Part shown: positions 16,210-19,276 of the stretch, piece after piece
Position numbering within the stretch: position 1 is the first letter of the stretch
How the letters are laid out: each line of letters opens with the position of its first letter
NCBI GenBank assembly: GCA_905235955.1
Contig: CAJONN010000004.1
Location: 1-24,455, forward strand
Direction of reading: 5' to 3'
DNA length: 24,455 bases
DNA from: an uncultured Marinilabiliaceae bacterium
GTDB lineage: Bacteria > Bacteroidota > Bacteroidia > Bacteroidales > Marinilabiliaceae
Notes under the pieces: generated by a model
What the model saw: the letters and a program-made list of their open reading frames with translations, nothing else
What the model was told of the DNA's origin: nothing
Databases searched by the model: none
Program-made: the position numbers and the translations under genes

Positions 16210-16776
16210 TCAGTGCAATAACCAATTTTTCAGTATCTGTGCGCCATCAGGTGTAAGCACTGATTCGGGGTGGAATTGTATGCCATGTATATCGTACTCT
16301 TTGTGGCGCAAAGCCATTATTTGTCCTTCGTTGCTGGTGGCGGTTACCTCTATGCATTGTGGCAAATTGTTGTTGCTCACTACCCATGAGTGGTATCTGC
16401 CTACATTTATTTGTGTAGGTAGTTCGGCAAATATGTAGTCGGTAGCTACAATGTTGACAGGTGTTTGTACTCCATGAAATACATCGCTAAGGTTTTGTAG
16501 TTTGCCACCAAAATATTCGCCTATTGCCTGATGACCCAAGCATACGCCCAATATGGGTTTCTGACCAGCGTATGTTGCTATCACTTGCAGTAGCAATCCG
16601 GCTTCTGAAGGTATGCCCGGCCCCGGCGAGAGCACTATTTTGTCAAACTCTTCGAGCTGTGAGAGCTCAAATTGGTCGTTGCGATACACTGTTACTTGTG
16701 CACCAAGTTCTTTGAGTAGGTGCGATAGGTTGTAGGTAAACGAATCGTAATTATCTATGATGACTATATTTTTCAT
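16210..16776 (-). CDS. trpG: Anthranilate synthase component II (glutamine amidotransferase)
   Basis: This 188-aa class I glutamine amidotransferase releases ammonia from glutamine for TrpE. The oxyanion loop is SPGPGIPSEAG (50-60), the nucleophile is C79 in GVCLGHQAIGEYFGG, and the His-Glu pair is H169 and E171 in GIQFHPESVL. IDNYDSFTYNL at the N-terminus is typical of TrpG/PabA. The start lies 34 bp after trpE, so the pair is translated from one mRNA. TrpG versus PabA cannot be separated from this subunit alone. The partner TrpE and the Trp-rich leader upstream decide for tryptophan synthesis, though it may also serve folate synthesis as in amphibolic TrpG proteins. No other trp gene follows; a tRNA-Leu promoter is next. 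Confidence 0.93.
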   Translation of the reverse strand: MKNIVIIDNYDSFTYNLSHLLKELGAQVTVYRNDQFELSQLEEFDKIVLSPGPGIPSEAGLLLQVIATYAGQKPILGVCLGHQAIGEYFGGKLQNLSDVFHGVQTPVNIVATDYIFAELPTQINVGRYHSWVVSNNNLPQCIEVTATSNEGQIMALRHKEYDIHGIQFHPESVLTPDGAQILKNWLLH

Positions 16777-16810: not shown

Positions 16811-18214
16811 TTACATCTTTTCTGCCATAAAAATAGCTTTGCGCAAGGCTCCAAGTTTGTTGTTGACCTCTTGTAGCTCGTATTCTTCGTTGCTCTTGGC
16901 CACAATGCCACCACCTGCCTGAAACCATAGTTCGTTGTTGCGGCTCACAAATGTGCGAATGGTTATGGCTTGGTTGAGCGAGCCATCAAAGCCTATGCTA
17001 CCCACGCAGCCGCCGTATGCGCCACGGTTGTGAGGTTCTATCTCGCTTATCAGTTGCATGGCACGCACTTTGGGGGCACCAGAGAGTGTGCCTGCAGGGA
17101 ATGTGTCGATGAAGGTTTTGATGGGGTCAGCATCATCGTTGAGCTTGCCACTTACACGGCTTACGAGGTGAATGACGTGGCTGTAGTATTGCATGTCTTT
17201 GTAGAAGTCGACCTTCACACCATGACAGTTTCGGCTCAAGTCGTTGCGAGCAAGGTCTACAAGCATCACGTGCTCAGCATTTTCTTTGGGGTCGTTGCGG
17301 AGGTAGAGCGCATTTTGTGCGTCAACTGATGGGTCGCCAGTGCGTTTGGTAGTGCCTGCAATGGGGTCAATGTAGGCAACGCGTTGGGCAGTGACGCGGC
17401 AATGTGTTTCAGGGCTTGAACCAAATATGCGGAAGCCACCCATGTCGAAGTAGAAGAGATATGGCGAGGGGTTGATGCTACGCAAGGTGCGATAGAGTTT
17501 GAAGTCGTCGCCTTCGTAGCGTTGGCAGAATCGGCGAGATAACACTATCTGAAATACATCGCCACGCAAACAGTGGGCAATGCCTTTGCGTATGTTGGCT
17601 TTGTGTTCTTCGTCGGTGAGTGTGCTTGTGGTTTCGCCAATGGGGCGGAAGGTGTAGCTGCGCACGTCGGCACGGTTCATCTGTTTTTCTATGCGGTCGA
17701 TGTTGGCCAATTCGCCTTCAGGAGCCAGACTTACAATGGAGAGTGTGTTGTTGAAATGGTCAAAGATGATGATGTTTTTGAACAATACGTAGAGCATGTC
17801 AGGGGCATCGTTGAGAGGTTGTGTTTCGTCTTTGACGTTGATGTTTTCAAAATATCTTACTGCGTTGAACGATGTGTAGCCAAGCAGTCCGCAGTGTTTG
17901 CTTTTGTCGCCTTTTATGTCGAAGGCTTGCAAGAATTGGTTTATCACTGCGTCGCTCTGATAGTTGGCGCTTATCGGTTTTGTGGTTTTTGTGCCGTTGG
18001 GGAATTTGCATTCGGCTACTCCGTGGCTAATGCTAACTGAGGCTATGGGTTCGATGCCAATAAACGATTTGGCATTTTCGCCGCTATGATAGTCAGAGCT
18101 TTCCATCAGAGCGCTTTGTGTATAGAGGTCGCGCAGGCGCATATAGATGCTCACTGGCGTATGTAGGTCGCCCAGAAGTTGTTTTACTTGTGTGTTGTAA
18201 ACGTATTTGTTCAT
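16811..18214 (-). CDS. trpE: Anthranilate synthase component I
   Basis: TrpE converts chorismate plus ammonia to anthranilate, the first committed step of tryptophan synthesis. At 467 aa the length is normal. The N-terminal LMESSDYHSGENAKSF (from 36) corresponds to the LLES element that binds feedback-inhibiting tryptophan, favouring TrpE over PabB. The chorismate-binding domain shows DVFQIVLSRRF, SPSPYLFYFD-type and SSPETHCRVT blocks, IDPIAGTTKRTG, ENAEHVMLVDLARNDL, GTLSGAPKVRAMQLI and GGCVGSIGFDG. It is the first structural gene after a Trp-codon leader ORF and an intrinsic terminator ending 30 nt upstream, so expression is probably controlled by transcription attenuation. Confidence 0.96.
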   Translation of the reverse strand: MNKYVYNTQVKQLLGDLHTPVSIYMRLRDLYTQSALMESSDYHSGENAKSFIGIEPIASVSISHGVAECKFPNGTKTTKPISANYQSDAVINQFLQAFDIKGDKSKHCGLLGYTSFNAVRYFENINVKDETQPLNDAPDMLYVLFKNIIIFDHFNNTLSIVSLAPEGELANIDRIEKQMNRADVRSYTFRPIGETTSTLTDEEHKANIRKGIAHCLRGDVFQIVLSRRFCQRYEGDDFKLYRTLRSINPSPYLFYFDMGGFRIFGSSPETHCRVTAQRVAYIDPIAGTTKRTGDPSVDAQNALYLRNDPKENAEHVMLVDLARNDLSRNCHGVKVDFYKDMQYYSHVIHLVSRVSGKLNDDADPIKTFIDTFPAGTLSGAPKVRAMQLISEIEPHNRGAYGGCVGSIGFDGSLNQAITIRTFVSRNNELWFQAGGGIVAKSNEEYELQEVNNKLGALRKAIFMAEKM

Positions 18215-18244
18215 CTCTTTTTTGTTTTTTCTTTTTCATAAAAA

Positions 18245-18274
18245 AAAGACCTGTCGGGAGGTCGGCAGGTCTTT
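18245..18274 (-). terminator. Attenuator terminator in the trpE leader
   Basis: AAAGACCTGTCG (18245-18256) and CGGCAGGTCTTT (18263-18274) form a 12-bp stem with one G-U pair and a 6-nt loop (18257-18262). On the minus strand the stem runs into eight T's (18247-18240). It lies 26 nt downstream of the Trp-rich leader ORF stop and 30 nt upstream of the trpE ATG. That position, after a leader peptide and inside the trpE 5' UTR, marks it as an attenuator rather than a simple pdxY terminator. Confidence 0.88.
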
Positions 18275-18300
18275 GTATTATTTTTTTTGGTACAAATGGC

Positions 18301-18366
18301 TCATTGCTCACTCCAGTTGTTGCGAGTAAGTTGCCACCACCATATGTTTTTGTTCTGAATTTTCAT
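18301..18366 (-). CDS. trpL: trp operon leader peptide, four Trp in 21 codons
   Basis: A short ORF of 21 codons plus TGA, beginning MKIQNKNI. Three consecutive TGG codons follow (residues 9-11, plus-strand CCA triplets at 18334-18342), and a fourth TGG is at residue 18 (18313-18315), ending NNWSEQ. Tryptophan at 4 of 21 residues, three in tandem, is far beyond chance and matches the logic of ribosome-mediated attenuation: scarce charged tRNA-Trp would stall the ribosome on the run. The stop codon lies 26 nt before the attenuator hairpin. A partial -7-like match (AAACTTTG, 18386-18393 on the minus strand) lies about 20 nt upstream of the ATG. No Shine-Dalgarno is evident, which is normal in Bacteroidota. 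Not cross-checked by homology. Confidence 0.87.
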   Translation of the reverse strand: MKIQNKNIWWWQLTRNNWSEQ

Positions 18367-18439
18367 CGCATTGTTTTTTGCGCCACAAAGTTTGTATTTT
18401 TTTTTGTAATAAAAAATTTTTCTATGCCAAATCACGCAG

Positions 18440-19276
18440 TTAATCTTTCAAAACTTCATCTAAGCACTCTTCGATAGGTATGCCGTAGCATTTTTCGGGT
18501 ATGTTTTGGTAGCGTATGACGAGTGTACGCACTATGTTCATCGCTCTTTGAGTGGCAACTTCGAGGCTTTTGCCATTCATTACGTCGCTAACCAATACGG
18601 CTGAGAATATATCGCCTGTGCCGGGTATGCGTACTGGCACTACTTCGTATGGCAGAGTGAAATAACGTTGATGCCAATGGTCGAAGCCTATTACAGAGTC
18701 TTGCCCATTGATGTTGGCACTGGTTACTATTACTGACTTTGTGCCAATGGCGCGTAGCTGGTCGATGAGTTGTTGCGCTTCGGCTGGACTGATGCTTTGC
18801 TTGTAGGTGCTGCCAGTGAGGTATACGGCTTCGGTGTAGTTGGGTACAATAACGTCGGCTATGCGTACCATTTCTTTCATGTTGCAGATGGTTATTTCAC
18901 CTACACCGTTGTATAGTTTGCCTTCATCGCCCATTATTGGGTCAACAAAAATGAGTGTGCCCTTTTGTTTTTTCTGGTTGCAATATGATGCGATGAGTTT
19001 GGCTTGTTCTTGGCTGACAATGAAGCCTGTTGATATGGCATCAAACTCAAAGCCCAATTCGTCGAATACGCCAAAGGTTTTTCGGATATGTTCGGTAGTG
19101 TCAAGTATAGAGAATTTGCCAAGCTCTAAGTTGTTGCTAACTACGCAAGTAGGCAAGTTGGTTGTTATATGTTTGGCGTGTGTTACAATGGGTATCATGG
19201 CAGCTAAGGCTACTTTGCCATATCCACACATGTCGTTGATTAGGAGTACTCTTTTGCCCAATTGCGAATTGTCCAT
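18440..19276 (-). CDS. pdxY: Pyridoxal/pyridoxamine kinase (ribokinase fold)
   Basis: A 278-aa ribokinase-superfamily kinase that phosphorylates pyridoxal, pyridoxine or pyridoxamine for PLP salvage. The N-terminal NDMCGYGKVALAAMIP corresponds to the substrate-binding S-x-x-G-x-G region of PdxK/PdxY. DPIMGDEGKLY (112-122) and VPNYTEAVYLTG (144-155) are family blocks. The phosphate-transfer anion hole and catalytic base are GTGD with D222 (IPGTGDIFSAVL). The start ATG at 19276 sits about 35 bp downstream of a TATCTTTG -7 element. PdxY versus PdxK is not resolved. Whether it is co-transcribed into the trp leader is unclear: 73 bp separate its stop from the leader start and no terminator lies between. 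Confidence 0.9.
   Translation of the reverse strand: MDNSQLGKRVLLINDMCGYGKVALAAMIPIVTHAKHITTNLPTCVVSNNLELGKFSILDTTEHIRKTFGVFDELGFEFDAISTGFIVSQEQAKLIASYCNQKKQKGTLIFVDPIMGDEGKLYNGVGEITICNMKEMVRIADVIVPNYTEAVYLTGSTYKQSISPAEAQQLIDQLRAIGTKSVIVTSANINGQDSVIGFDHWHQRYFTLPYEVVPVRIPGTGDIFSAVLVSDVMNGKSLEVATQRAMNIVRTLVIRYQNIPEKCYGIPIEECLDEVLKD

Follow-up and report, generated by a model that had tools for sequence, protein, structure and literature searches.

A predicted ribosome-mediated tryptophan attenuator ahead of trpEG in an uncultured Marinilabiliaceae bacterium, with related leaders in other Bacteroidota

The region ahead of trpEG in the DNA that we analyzed (the window: a 24,455-nt stretch of a contig from an uncultured Marinilabiliaceae bacterium) is, judging from its sequence, very probably a ribosome-mediated transcription attenuator of the Bacteroidota trp-leader kind. 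On the minus strand a leader ORF is followed by a terminator hairpin with a run of eight T, then by trpE and trpG. In related leaders a region behind the Trp codons is specifically complementary to the apex of the terminator of the same locus, and a second copy of the arrangement is present in the same genome.

The leader ORF, MKIQNKNIWWWQLTRNNWSEQ (18301..18366, minus strand), was delimited from the sequence and with regard to Trp-run leaders before trpE in relatives; it has 21 codons and the stop TGA at 18303-18301. The tandem Trp codons 9-11 (18334..18342, minus), assigned from sequence and folds, are the proposed sensor and also the 5′ strand of the outer 1:2 hairpin. The first-pass annotation had claimed a 21-codon ORF with Trp at codons 9-11 and 18, and direct reading from 18366 to 18301 on the minus strand agrees, as it does for the 26 nt between stop and hairpin (18300-18275), the T8 run (18240..18247, minus; seen in the sequence) and the 30 nt from the end of the terminator stem to the trpE ATG at 18214. 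The intrinsic terminator hairpin is also present (18245..18274, minus; dG -13.5), but its stem, described earlier as a clean 12 bp, consists of 9 bp, a C18265-A18254 mismatch and 2 bp, closed by the loop ACCUCC (18262-18257). From the leader stop to the trpE ATG there are 86 nt. Anthranilate synthase component I, trpE (16811..18214, minus), was identified by Pfam PF00425 and PF04715 (the best NCBIfam model, TIGR00564, scores below its cut-off); the glutamine amidotransferase component, trpG (16210..16776, minus), by Pfam PF00117 and by TIGR00566, above cut-off. The upstream gene (18440-19276) codes for a kinase, most like pyridoxamine kinase (NF005491: 223 of 231 bits).

Leaders of this layout recur in relatives. 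Among trpE loci from whole-genome relatives, 41 of 47 have a Trp-run leader and a terminator before trpE; alignment of relatives, proposed together with the original claim, confirmed that the Trp run and the terminator are kept while the remainder drifts. With named loci added and nine duplicates dropped, the set grew to 118 distinct trpE upstream regions (two of them too short); a loose rule flagged 62, and 45 with a Trp-run ORF before trpE were then chosen by eye. A terminator search found a hairpin with a T-rich tail behind each of these 45 trpE-first leaders (the trpE start called for L022 lies a further 302 nt downstream). The terminator consensus, from an alignment of 31 of the 45, has 12 pairs, 11 of them with changes on both sides. 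By TrpE, the closest named loci belong to MAGs that were obtained from horse faeces and ruminants and carry the label Bacteroidales or Paludibacteraceae. Most other loci have a ∼400-codon ORF directly before trpE, which is trpB-like (PF00291) in the one checked, L101. By rule, a Trp leader precedes the trpB-like gene in 35 of 63 loci and none does in 28 (of the 75 loci looked at, the 63 with an upstream stretch of 1600 nt or more were counted; the rule flagged 38 of them, from which L074, L077 and L106 were removed as not being leaders before trpB). Present either at trpE or at the preceding trpB-like gene, the leader thus tends to accompany the first gene of the unit.

An RNA model, R1, was built from 31 of the 45 trpE-first leaders, with the window included and L016 and L018 excluded. 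All 15 genomes of the genus have an R1 match of at least 47 bits, many of these being R1 training sequences; four (G000, G004, G006 and G009) have two matches each. The pair in G004 is near-identical, one leader standing before a trpB-like gene and the other before trpE; the trpB-like gene is separated from the second leader by a 504-aa ORF with no Pfam match and a radical-SAM protein (L137:2976-5247). In L042 (G042:C131) two WWW leaders, each with its own hairpin and T-run, stand in series in the stretch from ∼325 to 50 nt upstream of trpE; they are apparently tandem attenuators of one trpE. We also saw two kinds of TrpE in genus g1, 71–83% identical to that of the window in nine other genomes and 47–49% in five; leaders before the second kind read WWRW. 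Possibly, trpE was replaced there behind a kept leader.

The second copy in the window's own genome, a paralogue at G000:C13:6849-6974 (about L139:350-475), was outside the R1 training set and scores 69.1 bits. Its leader peptide is MKSRNNIWWWHLTLVKTGVRA, its predicted antiterminator has 8 bp, ACCGGAGU/ACUCCGGU, and it precedes a trpD-like gene (PF00591, PF02885). Downstream of that gene, on the same strand, are a 423-codon ORF (L139:1541-2812, G000:C13) and then trpC, trpF, trpB and trpA.

Pairings were assessed by an own-pair test, in which the duplex energy with the partner from the same locus was compared with energies for partners from other loci, over 92 leaders (one false leader of 93 was dropped). 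Region 2a with the terminator apex gave -10.0 for own and -6.2 for permuted partners (sd 0.25); the Trp region with region 2b (outer 1:2), -14.2 versus -11.2; the inner 1:2 stem, -6.8 versus -5.0; region 2b with the terminator 5′ arm, -8.7 versus -7.9; each with 0 of 1000 permutations reaching the own value. Two controls were flat (Trp region with apex, 344/1000; inner stem with apex, 929/1000); a third, Trp region with 5′ arm, was not (10/1000, and 23, 38 and 3 of 5000 in the thinned sets). Relatedness among loci inflates permutations of this type; thinned sets of 56, 30 and 14 representatives were permuted 5000 times. There, region 2a with the apex gave 0/5000 in all three and the outer and inner 1:2 pairings held (at most 10/5000), while region 2b with the 5′ arm, the lower antiterminator helix, faded (101, 258 and 518 of 5000). 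As both survive thinning and the lower helix does not, we consider the predicted 1:2 hairpin and apex pairing well supported; the two flat controls and the thinned sets speak against relatedness as the whole cause of the own-pair signal.

Over the 45 trpE-first loci the mean antiterminator duplex was -13.27 with own and -9.96 with permuted partners (sd 0.36; 0/2000). Excess complementarity amounted to 1.1–1.7 nt in 16-nt segments at +10, +15 and +20 after the last Trp codon, and did not exceed 0.35 nt at the other positions between -30 and +60. The element starts 15–23 nt after the last Trp codon in 39 of the 45 leaders and in 32 of 48 in a second set, with contiguous matches of at least 5 nt in 35/45 and 34/48, respectively. 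On average the match takes 0.4–0.8 nt of the 5′ arm, ∼3 nt of the loop and 2.1–2.6 nt of the 3′ arm; L008 and L009 depart from this, the match there using the 5′ arm and loop. The element and its partner vary freely together in sequence, with 4 to 13 nt matching contiguously, as in L039 (GGGAAAU/AUUUCCC), L046 (GAGAGGU/ACCUCUC), L049 (UGCUGUGUUAAGC/GCUUAACACAGCA) and L008 (CAAUCUCGG/CCGAGAUUG). We give even chances to the proposal that the antiterminator of Bacteroidota differs from that of E. coli: region 2a, situated just beyond the reach of the stalled ribosome, would grab the apical loop and the first bases of the 3′ arm and so keep the terminator from nucleating at its top, rather than sequester the 5′ arm.

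In the window copy, the 5′ strand of the inner 1:2 stem is CUUACUC (18324..18330, minus), which pairs with 18313-18307 (window folds, own-pair specificity over the 92 leaders). Region 2a, the putative antiterminator element, is CUGGAGUGAG (18307..18316, minus); its GGAG (18314-18311) pairs with CUCC (18260-18257) of the terminator, and it contains Trp codon 18 (18315-18313). Region 2b, the 3′ strand of the outer 1:2 hairpin, is GCCAUUUGUACCA (18288..18300, minus), of which UUUGUA (18296-18291) can pair instead with UACAAA (18277-18272). With ample charged tRNA-Trp, the ribosome would reach the stop codon and cover region 2a; with no ribosome there, the 1:2 hairpin would form (Trp codons with 18300-18288 and 18330-18324 with 18313-18307). 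Either way region 2 would be occupied, and the terminator would halt transcription before trpE. Under a shortage of charged tRNA-Trp, the ribosome would stall at codons 9-11, open the 1:2 hairpin and free region 2a to pair with the emerging terminator loop (in most relatives, also with the top of the 3′ arm); with the terminator blocked, RNA polymerase would continue into trpEG. We infer stalling, termination and antitermination in the cell, and with them a tryptophan response of this trpEG, from the layout and its conservation, from 1:2 and apex pairings that are own-pair specific in relatives, and from the second copy in the genome.

The Trp codon at position 18, which had been listed with the others, was rejected as a sensor. 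At the place of the window's ACTGGAG, the paralogue, L004 and L006 have ACCGGAG (and L005 has ACCGGGG). The TGG thus corresponds to the CCGGAG of the first three, read in another frame and with a T in place of one C; stalling at this codon would also leave region 2a under the ribosome. Codon 18 is probably a drifted piece of the pairing element.

The counterpart of region 2a in the nearest relatives and the paralogue is ACCGGAGU. The predicted antiterminator, which would have to exclude both the 1:2 hairpin and the terminator, is strong in relatives and the paralogue; in the window it comes down to the 4 bp of GGAG:CUCC. The full window leader folds as 1:2 hairpin plus terminator (-31.9 kcal/mol). 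Folding with a ribosome on the Trp codons was done for four RNAs (the window, L019, L004 and the paralogue). For the window this gave GGAG:CUCC, GCA:UGC and UUUGUA:UACAAA (∼-7.3) with up to 4 nt of the 3′ arm out; another weak fold was best at 6 nt and the terminator won from 8 nt. L019 switched at 8 nt and L004 at 10, and the paralogue kept its antiterminator (-28.5). Among the 92 leaders the window ranks 88th for region 2a with the apex, 86th for region 2b with the 5′ arm, 60th for the outer 1:2 pairing, 7th for the inner 1:2 stem and last (92nd) for terminator strength; 24 of 44 foreign terminators pair at least as well with its antiterminator element as its own terminator does. The antiterminator of the window copy is thus probably weakened and, for that reason, its regulatory range narrower than in the relatives and the paralogue. 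One could go further and suppose a relic, the descendant of a working attenuator whose antiterminator has decayed, so that the terminator is a fixed leak into trpEG and regulation is left to the other copy. The low ranks of antiterminator and terminator and the intact paralogue would fit; yet the leader ORF, three Trp codons, T8 and a strong inner 1:2 stem have been kept, and where the terminator is weak, a weak antiterminator may be enough (over the 45 loci, however, the two strengths were uncorrelated; rho 0.07, p 0.63). We regard such decay as improbable, a working attenuator of narrowed range being the preferred reading.

Other explanations are far less probable still. Being intergenic and scoring as a terminator on either strand, the hairpin could be the ordinary terminator of the upstream kinase gene, with a trpE promoter between terminator and ATG and a coincidental ORF. 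However, in dinucleotide shuffles of the 225-nt intergenic stretch, an ORF with ATG start, 8–40 codons and WWW arose in 0 of 2000 cases (with WW, in two of 2000), the layout is repeated in relatives and in units beginning with trpB-like and trpD-like genes, and the gap between stem and ATG is only 30 nt; we hold this account to be very improbable. A promoter candidate lies ahead of the leader: a putative -7 box, AAACTTTG (18386..18393, minus), 51 nt before the Trp run, matches 7 of 8 positions of TAnnTTTG, the consensus of the Bacteroidetes -7 box. In the 121 nt that precede the Trp run, 48 of 91 leaders have the exact motif, versus 156 of 1820 shuffles; in 42 of the 48 it is 48–72 nt upstream of the run. 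There is no exact motif in the window copy; the paralogue carries one, TACATTTG. The motif suggests a transcription start upstream of the leader, which fits attenuation, as the leader must be in the transcript.

Nor is it at all likely that the leader peptide works by another route, reinitiation or Rho-dependent termination, and not through alternative hairpins. Short leader ORFs near Bacteroidetes genes have been proposed to aid reinitiation (PMC4833913), but that paper puts the Bacteroidetes peak at 11–14 bp, against 86 nt here between leader stop and trpE ATG, and T-rich terminators stand behind all 45 leaders. Control by TrpR or TRAP was dismissed as well: their families (PF01371 and PF02081) were each found in 0 of the 15 genus genomes, where controls were detected (completeness is 81% for the window's own genome and at least 90% for 7 of the 15). 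A T-box was likewise rejected; at gathering scores, the scan of the window returned two tRNAs and nothing else. The first-pass annotation had proposed that this trpEG pair is controlled as in E. coli. Attenuation as such gains support from the conservation in relatives, the own-pair-specific 1:2 and antiterminator pairings and the lack of TrpR, TRAP and T-box in these searches; the proposal needs amending in that the kind is already catalogued, codon 18 is probably no sensor and the antiterminator is weak in this copy.

Similar layouts precede other amino acid genes in the genus. In the same genome hisG has the leader peptide MTTLHHHHHHHTDD (L188:291-335, G000:C178) followed by a hairpin and T-run, likely a histidine attenuator; leaders with 6–7 His before hisG were seen in 9 of the 15 genus genomes. 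Its pheA has MFNTRFYIGFYFYFFGYRQEKGGCCM (L186:1332-1412, G000:C50), also followed by a hairpin and T-run and likely a phenylalanine attenuator (RF01859 scores 32.6 of 55 bits at this leader); a Phe/Tyr-rich leader precedes pheA in 14 of the 15 genomes, the fifteenth being cut by a contig end. The his and phe terminators examined are those of the window's genome and, in the case of pheA, also that of L178; R1 matches under ∼40 bits were considered only where they lay before hisG or pheA. One uncultured Bacteroidales genus thus has layouts with a leader peptide ahead of trp (in two copies), his and phe genes. Attenuators of this kind need a ribosome close behind RNA polymerase and therefore offer a handle on transcription–translation coupling in Bacteroidota.

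Vitreschak et al. reportedly predicted some attenuators in Bacteroidetes/Chlorobi in 2004. The present kind is known as Rfam RF01692, ‘Bacteroid-trp’, a tryptophan leader of Bacteroidetes described by Weinberg et al. 2010 (PMC2864571), whose Table 1 marks it ‘y’ as RNA, ‘y’ as cis-regulatory and ‘n’ as switch. The RF01692 model aligns along its whole length (1-131 of 131) over 18386-18264, with 26.4 bits against a gathering cut-off of 49; no match in the window's own genome exceeds the cut-off (0/1). In 61 genomes including that one, scanned with strict filters that lose some weak matches, 21 matched at E up to 0.1 and two above cut-off, as compared with the leader and terminator at 41 of 47 trpE loci; the present set enlarges a family to whose members the Rfam model gives low scores. 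STnc370 on the terminator region (29.4 of 54 bits, higher than RF01692) and EF0408_EF0409 and further Rfam names near RF01692 were set aside, all being below their own cut-offs. The window, from a member of Bacteroidetes, has a trp gene preceded by a short ORF with tandem Trp codons, and the long hairpin with Trp codons in its 5′ strand (window folds; own-pair specific over 92 leaders), against which count 18 window positions marked non-standard in the alignment to the RF01692 consensus. R1 gives the window 77.2 bits by construction, the window being in its training set; it recovers L016 and L018, RF01692 members (49.7 and 50.2 bits) absent from that set, at 52.0 and 58.3 bits, which ties the group of the window to RF01692. 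On this sequence evidence the window appears to hold an RF01692-kind trp leader, although formally below the Rfam cut-off.

With Bacteroid-trp the window shares the phylum, the long imperfect hairpin over tandem Trp codons and the start of a terminator at the 3′ end of the model; the model differs in that it covers the 1:2 hairpin and ends in the terminator 5′ arm, with neither terminator stem nor antiterminator. The attenuator kind is therefore not new; the antiterminator geometry is the part for which we found no description in the open literature searched, and the proposal made here would supply this missing half of the Bacteroid-trp mechanism. With the E. coli trp attenuator (trpL; RF00513, whose Trp_leader model gives the window 18.9 bits, below its cut-off of 41) these leaders share the peptide with tandem Trp codons, the 1:2 hairpin, the terminator and the T-run. 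The trp attenuators of Corynebacterium and Streptomyces (PMC1262725) likewise have a double or triple UGG leader, with terminator and antiterminator predicted comparatively, in another phylum and with other conserved pairing triples. The predicted antiterminator of the E. coli trp leader, run as a control, takes the terminator 5′ arm and the preceding stretch, whereas that of the Bacteroidota leaders takes mainly the terminator loop and the top of the 3′ arm.
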